From assembly GCF_026229185.1 (NCBI RefSeq), contig NZ_JAGGJA010000005.1:248001-312000 (forward strand): DNA of 64,000 nucleotides, read 5' to 3'. Position 1 is the stretch's first letter; every line of letters begins with the position of its first letter. Of the stretch, positions 5,315 to 35,012 are shown one piece after another. The notes under the pieces are model-generated. The model had not been told where the DNA came from, searched no databases, and saw only the letters and a program-made list of their open reading frames with translations. The position numbers were made by a program, and so were the translations under genes. This stretch comes from Fodinibius salsisoli (lineage in GTDB: Bacteria; Bacteroidota; Rhodothermia; Balneolales; Balneolaceae).

Positions 5315-6583
5315 ATGTCCGTTAATCCTCCTAAAATATCAGACTTTTGTGTGGTCGGTGTAAACCACTGGGAAGCCACTATTGATATTCGTGAGCGGTT
5401 TAGCCTGAGTGAAATTCAGAAGAAAGAGCTCATTGAAGCAGCGCTCCGAGAAGGGCTTGAAAGCTTGTTTGTGGTTTCAACATGTAACCGCACCGAGATT
5501 TTTGCTCAGAATGTATCTCCCCAGGAATTGATCCGGCTACTGGTAGCTTATTCAAATGCCAAACTTGATGAATTTCATAATTATGGATTTGAAAAAGAAG
5601 GTCGCCCTGCGGTACAGCATCTGTTTCAGCTAAGCGTAGGGCTCGACTCGCAGATTTTGGGCGATGTCCAGGTCGTTAATCAGGTTAAAGAAGCCTATGA
5701 GTTTGCCAGTAACCTGGATGCGGTAGGCGGTGAGCTGCATCGCCTGATGCAGCATATTTTTCGGGCACACAAACGATCTCGGAACGAAACTTCACTGGGC
5801 GAGGGCGCTGCTACAACCGCCTATGCTGCCGTCAAATTTGCTGTGGAAACATTCGATAACCTGGCCGATAAAGATATCCTGCTGGTAGGAACCGGAAAGA
5901 TCGGCAAAGTAACATGCAAAAATCTGATTAACCTCGGTGCCCGGAAGTTGACGCTGATCAACCGGACCCGCGACCGTGCAGAATTTGTGGCTGATAAGTT
6001 TGACCTGGAAGTGGCTGACATGGAGAAGCTTCCAGAAAATATTGCCGAAGCTGATCTGATTATTGTGGCAACGGGAGCACAGCAGCCGGTAGTCACCCTC
6101 GATGATATGAAGCCGTCCATCCTGAATCCATCATTTAAGGTGTTGGTAGATCTGTCAGTGCCCCGAAATATCGATCCGGAGATCGGAGATTTAAAATTTG
6201 TGGATTTGGCAAATATGGACTTCCTTACGGATGTTACCGACGAAGCCTATCGCCGGCGAGAAGAGACCATCCCGATCGTGAAAAAGATTATTGATGATGA
6301 GCTCACGGACTATCAGAATTGGCTCAGCAAACAAAAAGTGGTGCCTACTATTAAGGCACTGACTTCTAAGTTCGATACCATCCGGGAAGATGAGTTCGAG
6401 TTTTTTAAGAATAAAATTTCGGATACGGATAAAGACAAAGTCGAAAATTTAACCCGACGCATTGTGAACAAGATTGCTGCTTATTCTATTGAGCACCTGC
6501 GCGACCATCATGAGTCTGAGCAGGTAACGCAGGTTGTGCACGATATGTTTAAACTTGAGACGCAGAAAAAAGATAATGAGTAA
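5315..6583 (+). CDS. hemA: Glutamyl-tRNA reductase
   Basis: NADPH-dependent reduction of glutamyl-tRNA(Glu) to glutamate-1-semialdehyde, the first committed step of the C5 route to 5-aminolevulinate. About 422 residues. The nucleophile Cys57 lies in STCNRTEIF. LGDVQVVNQVKEAY belongs to the catalytic domain, and GTGKIGKVTCKNL is the NADPH-binding glycine motif. A C-terminal helical dimerisation domain follows. I take the ATG at 5315 rather than the TTG at 5312 in the same frame. The gene follows hemH almost without gap and its end overlaps hemC by 8 bases, so the three are almost certainly co-transcribed and possibly translationally coupled. Confidence 0.96.
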   Translation: MSVNPPKISDFCVVGVNHWEATIDIRERFSLSEIQKKELIEAALREGLESLFVVSTCNRTEIFAQNVSPQELIRLLVAYSNAKLDEFHNYGFEKEGRPAVQHLFQLSVGLDSQILGDVQVVNQVKEAYEFASNLDAVGGELHRLMQHIFRAHKRSRNETSLGEGAATTAYAAVKFAVETFDNLADKDILLVGTGKIGKVTCKNLINLGARKLTLINRTRDRAEFVADKFDLEVADMEKLPENIAEADLIIVATGAQQPVVTLDDMKPSILNPSFKVLVDLSVPRNIDPEIGDLKFVDLANMDFLTDVTDEAYRRREETIPIVKKIIDDELTDYQNWLSKQKVVPTIKALTSKFDTIREDEFEFFKNKISDTDKDKVENLTRRIVNKIAAYSIEHLRDHHESEQVTQVVHDMFKLETQKKDNE

Positions 6584-8390: not shown

Positions 8391-9437
8391 ATGAGCAACG
8401 ATTTTCCCGAGTTAAAGAATGATTTATTATTACGAGCCCTTCGCGGTGAAGAAGTTGAACGCCCACCGGTGTGGATGATGCGGCAAGCGGGACGGTATCT
8501 TCCGCAGTACATGAAACTTCGTAAAAAATATACCTTCTTTGAACGCGTGGAAACGCCTGAACTGGCTTGTGAAATTACCATCCAGCCTATTGATGAGTTA
8601 GAACCGGATGCTGCCATTATCTTTTCGGACATCCTAACCGTGCCGCAAGCATTGGGTATAGATGTTGACTTGGTTAAGGGCAAAGGGCCTGTGATGGACA
8701 ATCCCATCCGAAGCGTAGATGATGCTTTTGCAATTTTGGCGGAAGATGTTCCGCAGAAGCTGAATCATGTGATGGAAGCCATCACACTGACTCGTCAAGA
8801 GCTTAACGGGCGCGTTCCACTGATTGGTTTTGCCGGCGCTCCTTGGACGCTCTTCTGTTATATGGTGCAGGGACAGGGTTCAAAAAACTTTGCCAAAGCC
8901 AAGGCGTTTATGTATCAGCATCCTGATGCGGCGCGGCACGTAATGAAAGAACTAACTAAGGCCACCATTGATTACCTTAAGGCACAGATCAAGGCGGGGG
9001 CACAGGCCGTGCAGCTGTTTGATTCCTGGGCCGGACTGTTGAGTCCCGAGGATTTTAACGAATGGGCAATGCCGTATTTGATGGAGATTTGCGATGCCAT
9101 TGATGAGGTCCCCATGATCCTGTTTGCAAAGGGCAGCTGGTATGCACTGGAGCGGTTGAGCTTTAAAAGTAAGGCCGCAGCACTTGGCCTTGACTGGACG
9201 ATCACTCCCGAGTATGGTCGAGAAGCCACGCGCGGAGATATCGTGTTGCAGGGAAATTTTGATCCCTCAAGACTGATGATGCCTACATATGAGATCCAGC
9301 GCCAGACAACACGAATGATAGATCGATTTGGCGTTCAGAATTACATTGCAAATCTCGGGCACGGTATCCTTCCGAATATTCCGGTTGATAATGCCCGCGC
9401 CTTTGTAGATGCCGTTAAAGAATATGAATCTGAATAG
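8391..9437 (+). CDS. hemE: Uroporphyrinogen decarboxylase
   Basis: Decarboxylates the four acetate side chains of uroporphyrinogen III to give coproporphyrinogen III. 348 residues, the family length. The signature RPPVWMMRQAGRYLPQY is near the N-terminus, the second signature is seen in GFAGAPWTLFCYMVQG, and the conserved Asp/Tyr/His active-site regions (IIFSDILTVPQALG, LFDSWAGLLSP, NLGHGILPNIP) are present. It sits between hemD and the fused hemF. The distance to the hemF reading frame (60 bases) contains one arm of an inverted repeat. Confidence 0.96.
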   Translation: MSNDFPELKNDLLLRALRGEEVERPPVWMMRQAGRYLPQYMKLRKKYTFFERVETPELACEITIQPIDELEPDAAIIFSDILTVPQALGIDVDLVKGKGPVMDNPIRSVDDAFAILAEDVPQKLNHVMEAITLTRQELNGRVPLIGFAGAPWTLFCYMVQGQGSKNFAKAKAFMYQHPDAARHVMKELTKATIDYLKAQIKAGAQAVQLFDSWAGLLSPEDFNEWAMPYLMEICDAIDEVPMILFAKGSWYALERLSFKSKAAALGLDWTITPEYGREATRGDIVLQGNFDPSRLMMPTYEIQRQTTRMIDRFGVQNYIANLGHGILPNIPVDNARAFVDAVKEYESE

Positions 9438-9449
9438 AACACGAAATTT

Positions 9450-9481
9450 GTCCCCCTTTGAAGGGGGATTAGGGGGATGAC
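9450..9481. repeat. Inverted repeat, left arm (hemE/hemF junction)
   Basis: Contains the G/C-rich hairpin ccccctttgaaggggg followed by attagggggatga. Read on the - strand in one frame it encodes HPPNPPSKGD, the same peptide pattern that the right arm encodes on the + strand (HPPAPPSKGD). Confidence 0.8.
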
Positions 9482-9497
9482 CCAAAGCAAATGAGAT

Positions 9498-10853
9498 ATG
9501 TCAGTTGAAAACAATAACTACGGTTACAATAAAAATCTAAAAGAGCTTGCAAGAAAGCTTCGAAAGGACTCTACAAAAGCTGAGGTTCGACTTTGGGCTG
9601 AGTTGTTACGAGCTGGTAACATGTTGGGGTACAATTTTTTACGTCAGAGACCAGTGTTGAGCTATATTGCTGACTTTATGTGCAAAGAGCTTCAGCTCAT
9701 CATTGAGGTTGACGGATATACTCATGAAAAGGAGCGGAAGTGGTACAAAGATTTAGATCGACAAAAAGAGCTCGAAGAAAAGGGGTTTACTGTTCTACGG
9801 TTTACGGATGATGAAATAATGAATGACCTCAAAAATGTTGAGAGATCTATAAAAAAATGGATTGAAGATCATCCCCCTGCGCCCCCTTCGAAGGGGGACT
9901 CTAAAGAGCCTTCAATCAAAGAACGGTTTGAATCGTACATCCAAAACCTGCAGGACGAAATTTGTGATAAATTGGAGGAATACGAACAGGGCGCCCGGTT
10001 TCGTCATGACGACTGGAATCGCGAAGGCGGGGGAGGAGGACACAGCCGCGTCATCGAAAAGGGCAGTGTTTTTGAAAAAGGGGGAGTCAACATTTCTGCT
10101 GTGCATGGAGAGCTGCCCGCTGTGATACGCAAGCGGTTCGACGTAGAGCAGGGCTGGTTCTGGGCCGGAGGAATATCGCTCGTCTTGCATCCCCTAAATC
10201 CTATGGTGCCAACGGTTCATGCTAACTTCCGCTATTTTGAGCTTTATGATGATGCAAGCATGAACGAAGTGCGGGACTGCTGGTTTGGTGGAGGTGCTGA
10301 TCTGACGCCGTACTATTTGTGGGATGAAGATGCCGTGCACTTCCACAGCGTGCTTAAAGCAGCATGTGATGAACATGGCTCTGACCTATATCCCAAATTT
10401 AAAAAAGAGTGTGACGACTATTTTTACAATGAGCACCGGTCTGAAGGGCGGGGTGTCGGTGGACTGTTTTTTGATTACCTGCGTCCAACGGAAGAGCGGT
10501 CAGCAGAAGATTGGTACCGGTTTACGACCGAAGTGGGAAGTGCTTTCCTCGAAAGTTATAGTCCGATTGTTGACCGCCGTAAAGATGAATCTTATACCGA
10601 AGAACAGCGCTATTTTCAGGAAATTCGGCGCGGCCGTTATGTAGAGTTTAATTTGATCCACGATCGTGGTACCTTGTTTGGCCTTAAAACAGGAGGACGG
10701 ACAGAATCTATTTTAATGAGTTTACCGCCTCGCGTTCGGTGGGATTACGATTTTATTCCCGAAGAGGACAGCCGGGAAGCGTACCTTATAGATCGGTTGG
10801 AAAATCCCATCGACTGGATCGAATATGGTGAAAAAGAAAATATTTTAAATTAA
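9498..10853 (+). CDS. hemF: DUF559 nuclease domain fused to HemF
   Basis: A 451-residue fusion. Residues 17-122 form a DUF559 (Vsr/PD-(D/E)XK-like) domain with AEVRLW, YIADFMC, IIEVDGYTH and VLRFTDDEI all present, so its putative nuclease residues look intact. Residues 125-134 (HPPAPPSKGD) are translated from the right inverted repeat. From about residue 139 the protein is oxygen-dependent coproporphyrinogen III oxidase, converting coproporphyrinogen III to protoporphyrinogen IX: GGGGGHSRVIE, VHANFRYFEL, CWFGGGADLTPYY, RGVGGLFFDYL and GRYVEFNLIHDRGTLFGL are intact. E. coli HemF is about 300 residues and lacks the N-terminal part. I find no ATG between the linker and the conserved HemF region, so a separate HemF start is not evident. 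Start ATG 9498 precedes MSVENNNYGYNKNLKE. Confidence 0.9.
   Translation: MSVENNNYGYNKNLKELARKLRKDSTKAEVRLWAELLRAGNMLGYNFLRQRPVLSYIADFMCKELQLIIEVDGYTHEKERKWYKDLDRQKELEEKGFTVLRFTDDEIMNDLKNVERSIKKWIEDHPPAPPSKGDSKEPSIKERFESYIQNLQDEICDKLEEYEQGARFRHDDWNREGGGGGHSRVIEKGSVFEKGGVNISAVHGELPAVIRKRFDVEQGWFWAGGISLVLHPLNPMVPTVHANFRYFELYDDASMNEVRDCWFGGGADLTPYYLWDEDAVHFHSVLKAACDEHGSDLYPKFKKECDDYFYNEHRSEGRGVGGLFFDYLRPTEERSAEDWYRFTTEVGSAFLESYSPIVDRRKDESYTEEQRYFQEIRRGRYVEFNLIHDRGTLFGLKTGGRTESILMSLPPRVRWDYDFIPEEDSREAYLIDRLENPIDWIEYGEKENILN
9868..9899. repeat. Inverted repeat, right arm (inside fused hemF)
   Basis: Contains cccccttcgaaggggg and lies within the reading frame, encoding the Pro-rich linker HPPAPPSKGD between the DUF559 and HemF parts. 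It pairs with 9450-9481. The arm is itself palindromic and could form a strong hairpin in the mRNA. Confidence 0.8.
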
Positions 10854-10904: not shown

Positions 10905-11897
10905 ATGGCACACGGACAATTTCCATATATTCGCGGGCGACGGCTCCGCACAACTAAGGCATTACGAGCAATGGTAGCCGAGCATAATCTTAAGCCTGCT
11001 GATTTTATTGCTCCTGTTTTTGTGATGGAAGGTAAAAATGAGAAGGTAGAGATTCCTTCTATGCCCGATTACTATCGCTATACACTAGACCTGTTGCTTG
11101 ATGAAGTTGATGAATTACAGCAGGCAGGAATTCAGTCGGTCCTGGTTTTCGCTAAAGTCCCCGATGAAAAGAAAGACAATAAAGGTACAGAGGCCCTTAA
11201 CCCGGAAGGCTTGATGCAGCGGGCCGTAGGTTCGATTAAAGAACAGTTTCCGGAGATGTTGGTAATGACCGATATTGCCATGGATCCCTATTCCAGCTAC
11301 GGGCATGACGGTATTGTGGAAGACGGAGAGATCCTGAACGATGCCTCTGTTGAGGTATTGTCAAAGGTGGCGGTAAGCCATGCCGAGGCTGGTGCCGATA
11401 TGGTGGCGCCTTCGGATATGATGGATGGGCGTATTGGCGCTATGCGCGAAGCTCTGGATGAAGCCGAATTTACTCACACCGGTATTATGGCCTACAGTGC
11501 AAAATACGCCTCCAGCTACTATGGTCCATTTCGTGATGCCTTGGATTCGGCTCCGGGTTTTGGTGATAAAAAAACATACCAAATGGATCCGGCGAATGTT
11601 CAAGAAGCCATCAAAGAAGCTAAGCTGGATGAGCAAGAGGGGGCCGACATCGTTATGGTAAAGCCAGGCCTGCCATATATGGATGTAATTCGAGCCGTCA
11701 AAGAAAACGTATCAGTACCCGTATCGGTGTATAATGTTTCTGGCGAATATGCTATGTTAAAGGCCGCTGCTGAAAAGGGCTGGCTGGATGAAGAAGAAGT
11801 AATGCTCGAAACATTGATTGGATTTAAACGAGCCGGCGCGGACCTGATTGCTACCTATTTTGCGAAACAAGCATCGAAATTATTGAATAGAAAGTAA
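10905..11897 (+). CDS. hemB: Porphobilinogen synthase (ALA dehydratase)
   Basis: Condenses two 5-aminolevulinates to porphobilinogen. 330 residues. The Schiff-base lysines are in MAYSAKYASSYYG and VMVKPGLPYMD. The loop that carries three cysteines in zinc-dependent enzymes reads DIAMDPYSSYGHDGIV here, with Asp/Ser in place of Cys, so this is a zinc-independent, probably Mg2+- (and perhaps K+-) activated type. The start MAHGQFPYIRGRRLRTTKALRAMV fits the family. It follows the fused hemF by 51 bases on the same strand and is read before hemL, though its enzymatic step comes after hemL. Confidence 0.96.
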   Translation: MAHGQFPYIRGRRLRTTKALRAMVAEHNLKPADFIAPVFVMEGKNEKVEIPSMPDYYRYTLDLLLDEVDELQQAGIQSVLVFAKVPDEKKDNKGTEALNPEGLMQRAVGSIKEQFPEMLVMTDIAMDPYSSYGHDGIVEDGEILNDASVEVLSKVAVSHAEAGADMVAPSDMMDGRIGAMREALDEAEFTHTGIMAYSAKYASSYYGPFRDALDSAPGFGDKKTYQMDPANVQEAIKEAKLDEQEGADIVMVKPGLPYMDVIRAVKENVSVPVSVYNVSGEYAMLKAAAEKGWLDEEEVMLETLIGFKRAGADLIATYFAKQASKLLNRK

Positions 11898-34370: not shown

Positions 34371-35012
34371 TTATCTTACAGGGAAATATGCTTTCTTGCA
34401 ATAGATCCATTTCCATTCTTTCCAGGAATCTACTAATTTGGCTTTAACGGGATTTGATAAAATATATCGAATAATATTTTCTCGTTCTTCGTCACCTCTG
34501 ACCAAGTGATCATAACTTTCATGTTGCCAAAAAGAACCTGTTTTATTAAGTAGTTTATTAGCTTGATATGCAGTTGAGCCCTTGATGAGTTTAAGAATGT
34601 TAGTTACTGGATATTGGGAGTCTGTAGAGCGAGATTTATCTCGCTCATATAATTTGAATAAAAGGTGAACATGGTTTGGCATTATACAGTAGCATATCAA
34701 TAAATACTTTCGGTTGTCAAAACTATGGAGTTTATTCGCTACTATTTCAGCTATTTTATCCTCTTTTAACCAACAAACACTATTTTTAGACTGATCAAGA
34801 ATGCGGTCGAATTTCGCAAAATATTTTTCCTGCTGAGCTTTTTTAGATTCAGATACTGCATCAGAGTTTATTCCTTCAGACAATTTATAATATTCGTCCC
34901 TTAATTTTGCTACAGCGTCTTTAGGAAGGGAGTTAGCTAATCGGAAAGTTATAAAAAATTCGCCTTGTGGAGGTTGATAGTGCGGGAGATTGCGTCGATA
35001 ATAATTACTCAT
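34371..35012 (-). CDS. REP-associated tyrosine transposase (RAYT)
   Basis: A Y1-type HUH nuclease of the TnpA_REP family, about 213 residues from ATG 35012 (MSNYYRRNLPHYQPPQGEFFITFRL). Metal-binding motif MPNHVHLLFK is at 111-120 and the catalytic Tyr is in SFWQHESYDHL (about 161-171). NPVKAKLV closes the family core. REP-like palindromes lie upstream (35073-35138) and inside the coding sequence (34627-34646, encoding ERDKSRS at about 123-129). Enzymes of this family act on REP hairpins and are usually single-copy domesticated transposases. The gene stands between the MocR gene and mutS2. Confidence 0.88.
   Translation of the reverse strand: MSNYYRRNLPHYQPPQGEFFITFRLANSLPKDAVAKLRDEYYKLSEGINSDAVSESKKAQQEKYFAKFDRILDQSKNSVCWLKEDKIAEIVANKLHSFDNRKYLLICYCIMPNHVHLLFKLYERDKSRSTDSQYPVTNILKLIKGSTAYQANKLLNKTGSFWQHESYDHLVRGDEERENIIRYILSNPVKAKLVDSWKEWKWIYCKKAYFPVR
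34627..34646. repeat. REP-like palindrome inside the RAYT gene
   Basis: gagcgagatttatctcgctc is an inverted repeat (9-bp arms, 2-base centre). It shares the CGAGATnnATCTCG core with the palindrome upstream of the same gene and is preceded by tgta in a similar way. It falls in the stretch after the HUH motif, so it adds residues without breaking the frame. Confidence 0.7.

Follow-up and report, generated by a model that had tools for sequence, protein, structure and literature searches.

How does an oxygen-dependent HemF encoded in a heme operon come to start with a nuclease domain, and what brought that domain there? In the 64-kb stretch of DNA analysed here, referred to as the window, a DUF559 domain and HemF share one open reading frame between hemE and hemB, and a pair of inverted repeats surrounds the nuclease part. 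The features of the locus are as follows:

8391..9437, plus strand: hemE, located upstream; 12 nt separate the end of its stop codon from the left repeat
9450..9899, plus strand: whole mobile-element-like unit of 450 nt (inverted repeat, DUF559, inverted repeat)
9450..9480, plus strand: left terminal inverted repeat, non-coding; GTCCCCCTTTGAAGGGGG palindrome, spacer and AGGGGGATGA
9498-10853, plus strand: DUF559-HemF fusion ORF, 451 aa, uninterrupted frame
9498..9872, plus strand: DUF559 (Vsr-like / EDxHD-type) nuclease domain, residues 1-125; provides the start codon
9869..9899, minus strand: right terminal inverted repeat, translated as the linker HPPAPPSKGD, residues 125-134
9900..10853, plus strand: HemF, residues 135-451, an oxygen-dependent coproporphyrinogen III oxidase; free-standing hemF of relatives has an ATG that is lost here
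10905..11897, plus strand: hemB, downstream neighbour

The fused reading frame and the unit at its start

Both halves of the fusion are recognised by Pfam. DUF559 (PF04480) matches residues 13-122 with an E-value of 9.1e-31 and 106.4 bits, the curated cut-off being 20.6, while Coprogen_oxidas (PF01218) matches residues 144-440 (E 2.9e-128) and covers positions 2-295 of the 295 in the profile, so that the HemF half is full-length. The residues E29, D59, E70 and D72, which we take to be catalytic, are all present in the DUF559 part. Across 23 aligned DUF559 relatives (alignment A1, from which L063, L065 and the fragments L071/L072 were left out), E29, D59 and D72 are invariant, and E70 and H76 are nearly so. 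Open reading frame and Pfam agree with the sequence-only reading, which had described a DUF559 domain with intact putative catalytic positions joined in frame to a complete HemF, and neither a frame break nor a separate HemF start was found between the halves in 9498-10853. It had also been proposed that the DUF559 start replaced that of HemF. Read from the sequence, no in-frame ATG or GTG lies between Met108 and the conserved HemF start, which bears this proposal out, and the first in-frame TTG after Met108 falls within HemF; translation of HemF appears to depend on the DUF559 ATG. Three further genomes (G014, 450 aa; G013, 451 aa; G010, 445 aa) have the same frame uninterrupted, and consequently the fusion is no assembly accident. 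One TAA in the fusion match of G010 was considered and set aside, being absent from the 445 codons translated.

The nuclease part is enclosed by 31-nt inverted repeats that are 87% complementary, are separated by 388 nt and have their outer ends at 9450 and 9899. Each of them carries the palindrome CCCCCTTYGAAGGGGG on the outside and AGGGGGATGA on the inside. With up to 3 mismatches, the palindrome is found in the window at the two unit ends only, while its exact form occurs at 16 places in the 4.85-Mb genome, compared to 0 in the backwards control. What had been described as a Pro-rich linker is the right inverted repeat in translation, and position 9450, from which the sequence-only reading had set out, is the outer end of the left repeat; the repeats themselves had not been noticed. 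By eye, the left repeat and the next bases are identical in 32 of 37 aligned columns among the four genomes with the fusion, and the sequence outside the left repeat does not align among them. Homology between related DUF559 copies at unrelated sites stops at such repeats as well. As single strands, the unit ends allow a C run to pair with either of two G runs, at modest z-scores of -1.3 to -2.6. Inverted ends round a single ORF, a membership feature of insertion sequences of the TIR type, are present. The fusion is explained by a 450-nt unit inserted at the hemF start. This corresponds to the original idea of a DUF559 element that landed at the hemF start and replaced it, as inverted repeats bound the insert and 8 of the 12 hemF genes of the genus are without it.

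Heme operons with and without DUF559

Within the genus, four of 12 genomes carry the fusion (G000, which is the genome of the window, G010, G013 and G014), and hemF stands alone in the other eight. From the hemE stop to the conserved IK codons of HemF the distance amounts to 54-174 nt in the eight unfused genomes and 477-481 nt in the four fused ones. In seven of the eight, the free-standing hemF starts 2-5 codons ahead of IK (e.g., MSKES-IK, MKKES-IK); hemF of G016 has an earlier start and a longer leader before IK. The right repeat of the fusion ends at about the position of the free-standing start codon. With respect to close relatives, the sequence-only reading holds in part: the N-terminal 138 residues are absent from 8 of the 12 genomes, and the same fusion in the remaining four makes it neither universal nor the oddity of a single genome.

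Among the four fusions, dN is 0.078-0.166 for DUF559 and 0.098-0.131 for HemF, and dS is mostly saturated, with a lowest value of 1.15. Since the dN values are alike and synonymous sites are mostly saturated, both parts have long been under similar purifying selection; judged from these rates, the nuclease part is conserved as strongly as HemF and under purifying selection.

The fusion carriers do not group in either of two trees, one built on HemE+HemB and one on HemE+HemF+HemB. The latter tree places G010 as sister to the unfused G015 (100/97) and G014 among unfused species (97/96), and a hem tree in which the carriers are held together as a clade is rejected (AU p=0.00012). The four DUF559 domains of the fusions form one clade in the DUF559 tree (SH-aLRT 98). 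No conversion or transfer tract was seen in the hemE or hemF flanks of the fusion. By eye, parsimony at hemF requires about 4 gains or, alternatively, 1 gain and 5 losses. The scattered carriers may go back either to repeated gain or to one old insertion with repeated loss. The single clade of the DUF559 domains, together with a synonymous divergence comparable to that of HemF, speaks for one old insertion. Scars of a lost unit in the unfused genus mates were looked for and not accepted, as the eight genomes tested gave weak signs only (shuffle fractions 0.013 in G011, 0.053 in G018 and 0.103 in G016). A spacer motif common to G034, where it has 8 copies, was dropped as evidence.

DUF559 is found elsewhere in heme operons as well. 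In G034, which belongs to another genus, a DUF559 ORF of 168 aa lies between hemE and hemF, and hemF retains its own ATG. The same DUF559 subfamily follows hemD in seven genomes of two other genera, where it forms one clade (SH-aLRT 99); hemE lies beyond hemD-DUF559 in six of the seven, and the contig ends in the seventh. In two of these genomes HemD and DUF559 are fused in frame (L060:1596-2924, a frame of 442 aa, and L059:3277-4503, a frame of 408 aa), and in the others they are separate. These HemD-DUF559 frames, from other genera of the family, mirror DUF559-HemF. When 20 further hem regions were chosen and fetched, DUF559 was present at the hemD-hemE junction in 0 of the 14 readable relatives. 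A HemN_C protein of HemN size (459-481 aa) is encoded in all seven genomes tested, G000 included, and HemF therefore need not be essential. The suggestion of a "selfish addiction" to the fused nuclease is not supported, since such a HemN-sized paralogue exists and loss of HemF might be tolerated.

Repeat-bounded DUF559 units and signs of mobility

DUF559 is usually packaged as a repeat-bounded unit, and this in several phyla. From a scan with one genome per species, the best 80 of 462 relatives were taken; most belong to Bacteroidota, with others in Balneolota, Planctomycetota and the Deltaproteobacteria of older taxonomy. Each locus was given an inverted-repeat score, that of the best local inverted alignment, gaps allowed, between its two flanks of about 200 nt, and the threshold was set at 14; 78 of the 80 fetched loci were scored, L139 and L146 being dropped for their short flanks. 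A score of at least 14 was reached by 58 of the 78 DUF559 loci compared to 8 of 1267 slid-control windows (largest control score 215), and by this score a clear inverted repeat is absent from 20 of the 78. Flanks paired across loci reached the threshold in 218 of 620 cases as well, the ends having a consensus in common. For the five other DUF559 genes in the window's genome, the first version of the measure gave 10.0-14.5, with 2 reaching 14, and G/C-run repeats are visible beside them. Among 38 plasmid records with a DUF559 match, 8 were chosen for spread (Cyanobacteriota, Deinococcota, Alphaproteobacteria). A strong inverted palindromic pair was detected in 7 of these 8 loci compared to 0 of 96 slid controls, each of the 7 pairs having its own sequence, and the Synechocystis plasmid locus is the one without such a pair. 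On a Sphingomonas plasmid, a DUF559 unit (L279:2480-2875) is located in an NAD(P) transhydrogenase operon with the next annotated gene starting directly after its stop codon, which looks like another insertion at a gene start. The Deinococcus plasmids L278 and L281 carry DUF559 units at differing positions in hpa (hydroxyphenylacetate) gene clusters.

The DUF559 tree comprises 111 domains, obtained from 132 hits by removal of partial ones and exact duplicates; it is a quick tree in which 47 of 107 forks are unresolved. By a simple rule, a palindrome stands on both sides of 50 of the 111 unique domains, in units of 431-582 nt. The core of the ends, which is of the TTNNAA or the GCTGGC type, changes 2 times on this tree (72 of 111 loci labelled), while shuffled labels gave a mean of 19.3 and a minimum of 14 changes. 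For the tail of the ends, 17 changes were counted (82 loci; shuffled mean 37.5, minimum 31). Left and right tails agree at 52 of 60 loci, compared to a shuffled mean of 24 and a maximum of 38.

Recent movement is suggested by G016, where two DUF559 units (L166:2232-2771 and 5483-6022) are 99.6% identical over 540 nt, lie 3.25 kb apart and have unrelated flanks. The second copy is situated behind what we take, from its C-terminus, to be the end of mnmE. The blocks around this copy are separated by 825 nt in G016, by 136 nt in G011 and by 523 nt in G000, where the intervening sequence is unrelated; elsewhere among the genomes compared, the two blocks are not neighbours. Because of the unrelated sequence in G000, only G011 looks empty at this site. 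The Pontibacter copies L108/L149 have only a 464-nt unit in common, and for the pairs L108/L149, L136/L152 and L061/L062 together, the common sequence is, besides short pieces, the unit only (441-541 nt). Many other pairs of DUF559 loci share their flanks and are orthologous, i.e., inherited at one site. By eye, no obvious target-site duplication was found in 50 boundary pairs, and the spacers at the relatives' empty sites are too diverged to align.

The end unit CCCCCTTNNAAGGGGG-N(1-30)-AGGGGGATGA is present in 27 of 92 family genomes, compared to 0 of 92 for the backwards pattern. Among the matches listed, 18 genomes have a DUF559 whose identity to that of the window is 60% or more (two partial), and 16 of these contain the end unit, compared to 11 of 74 others, kinship being ignored in this comparison. 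Seven pairs of ends face each other within 3 kb: DUF559 lies inside three of them (446 nt), the remaining four span 112-129 nt, and short pairs with a divergent second end are also visible in G067 and G068. Many solo ends and units of 112-129 nt are without DUF559. A 33-nt end repeat of the G016 type (query 784-816) has at least 23 dispersed copies on many contigs of G000, several of them paired with the other end about 110 nt off; in the tree, all six DUF559 genes of G000 fall outside the L166 type. On contig C15 of G000, L012-L014 (at 4762, 6511 and 9364) are three near-identical solo palindromic units spaced by 1.7-2.9 kb.

Known systems and competing explanations

The AlphaFold2 model of DUF559, built from the 23-row alignment, has a pLDDT of 83. 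Among solved structures, NGO0050 (3hrl) and the I-Bth0305I catalytic domain (3r3p) come closest in both profile and fold, the latter with E-values of 2e-6 in hmmsearch and 3.8e-4 in Foldseek. A DUF559 gene has been assigned to the EDxHD homing endonuclease family (PMC9403480), which is described in PMC3943268. Fold and sequence similarity to the EDxHD catalytic domain are present in DUF559; with regard to introns and homing, inverted repeats flank DUF559, its presence on the hem tree is patchy and its flanks are without a transfer tract. I-Bth0305I, an EDxHD or Vsr-like homing endonuclease, has the same fold and a similar profile, and the mobility of the DNA that encodes it is linked to this nuclease, as may be the case for DUF559. 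In contrast, the DUF559 unit has two inverted palindromic ends where I-Bth0305I has an intron, and free-standing DUF559 copies hold little protein beyond the 125-aa domain.

In REP/REPIN-RAYT systems (TnpA-REP), a single small enzyme gene lies between inverted palindromic repeats, and short copies of the repeats are dispersed. The DUF559 unit is alike in its one small enzyme gene, its inverted palindromic flanks and its short dispersed copies; however, its enzyme is DUF559, a PD-(D/E)XK/Vsr-like nuclease, and not a Y1 tyrosine transposase of the HUH type (for REP/REPIN-RAYT see PMC3116915, PMC8266576). Rickettsia palindromic elements are mobile palindromes that enter metabolic genes in frame and are translated with them (PMC10969869), and in this they resemble the insert in hemF. 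Yet they measure about 150 bp and contain a short conserved peptide, whereas the DUF559 unit brings its own nuclease ORF into the host protein. With insertion sequences and MITEs the unit shares inverted ends, one ORF and short ends-only copies; unlike insertion sequences, DUF559 units of 431-582 nt have no known transposase domain and no demonstrated target duplication. VsrA of Caulobacter is a DUF559 protein too, a Vsr-like enzyme behind an SOS response that is read as a mismatch-repair nuclease (PMC12907096). In contrast to the fusion it is free-standing, and the parts of that article at hand do not mention inverted repeats. Literature linking DUF559 to inverted palindromic ends was not found in the titles and abstract openings listed, a scope that excludes preprints and most subscription journals.

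We consider it probable (about 0.68) that DUF559, as a relative of I-Bth0305I, serves as nuclease in a very small mobile element with palindromic ends, one copy of which was captured as the start of hemF. Architecture, coevolution with the ends and recent duplication support the claim of a mobile family, and we infer mobilisation by DUF559 itself. The nuclease of about 125 aa would recognise the palindromic ends, in which either G run is a possible partner for the C run, and by cutting would move its own unit and, in trans, the short ends-only copies. In an ancestor of the lineage, a copy may have inserted between hemE and hemF such that its right end fell on the hemF start codon. As the right repeat is without a stop in this frame, DUF559 would read through it into HemF, and the DUF559 ATG would now start HemF. 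Purifying selection would have preserved the nuclease ever since to the same degree as HemF, and because of this equal conservation the cell would make a HemF bearing a probably active DNA nuclease. As an autonomous element, a unit of about 450 nt would, to our knowledge, be among the smallest.

One might instead regard DUF559 as a passenger and the palindromic repeats as a REP/MITE-type family moved by another transposase, e.g., of the Y1/RAYT kind. Y1 transposase matches do occur in 7 of 9 genomes tested, but among 59 matches listed, 20 Y1 loci were fetched and, within up to 1.5 kb on either side, 0 of the 20 carry the repeat motifs in exact form. A Y1_Tnp match is lacking in G013 and also in G016, the genome with the most recent duplication. 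The many solo and 112-129-nt units without DUF559 would suit a passenger, as would the related end repeat with its at least 23 copies in G000, whose six DUF559 genes are all outside the L166 type; however, the end type follows the DUF559 phylogeny and no other gene was seen between facing ends up to 3 kb apart, and we judge this explanation unlikely. As an observation of its own, the window contains a weak Y1 transposase-like match (34458-34742, minus strand, E 1.7e-6), near which the palindrome was not found.

Mobility could also belong to the past, if the copies in hem operons had been kept as a domesticated regulator, with DUF559 and palindrome (as mRNA or DNA) regulating heme genes or protecting DNA under oxidative stress. 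Such a role, which we think rather improbable, would be consistent with the strong purifying selection on DUF559, with the non-coding left repeat conserved in four species, and with the apparent arrival of the same subfamily at least twice in the hem operon (the HemD-site clade of 7, SH-aLRT 99, and the HemF clade of 4, SH-aLRT 98). It is at odds with the absence of DUF559 at those sites from 8 of 12 genus genomes and from 14 of 14 chosen relatives whose hemD-hemE junction could be read, and with free-standing DUF559 elements elsewhere, which retain the same residues. An ordinary old domain fusion, with no mobile element and with the repeats as incidental terminator-like sequences, is very improbable: the repeats coincide with the ends of the insert, and the slid controls, the element-limited homology and the recent duplication all argue against it, even though G/C-run palindromes can resemble terminators and 3 of the 80 DUF559 loci were recognised by their reading frames as fused to a gene (two DUF559-HemF, one HemD-DUF559).

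Beyond the case of hemF, we suggest tentatively, and with somewhat less than even confidence, that DUF559 may represent a new class of autonomous mobile element in several phyla, in which two palindromic ends and a single protein of about 120 residues, similar to a homing endonuclease, would together act as a transposon. Many dispersed C-run/G-run palindromes of bacterial genomes might owe their mobility to it, and it could settle at gene starts and be captured there as a translation start with an active nuclease attached. In Pfam, DUF559 is still a "domain of unknown function", and the analysis encountered it in several phyla. Should it prove to be the enzyme that moves palindrome-ended elements, the family would gain a testable function, an origin would be offered for many dispersed palindromic repeats, and a transposon-like element would be driven by a homing-type nuclease instead of a transposase. 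In HemF, such an element would have become part of a metabolic enzyme, its repeat turned into a linker and its start codon into that of the enzyme, while its nuclease stays conserved.
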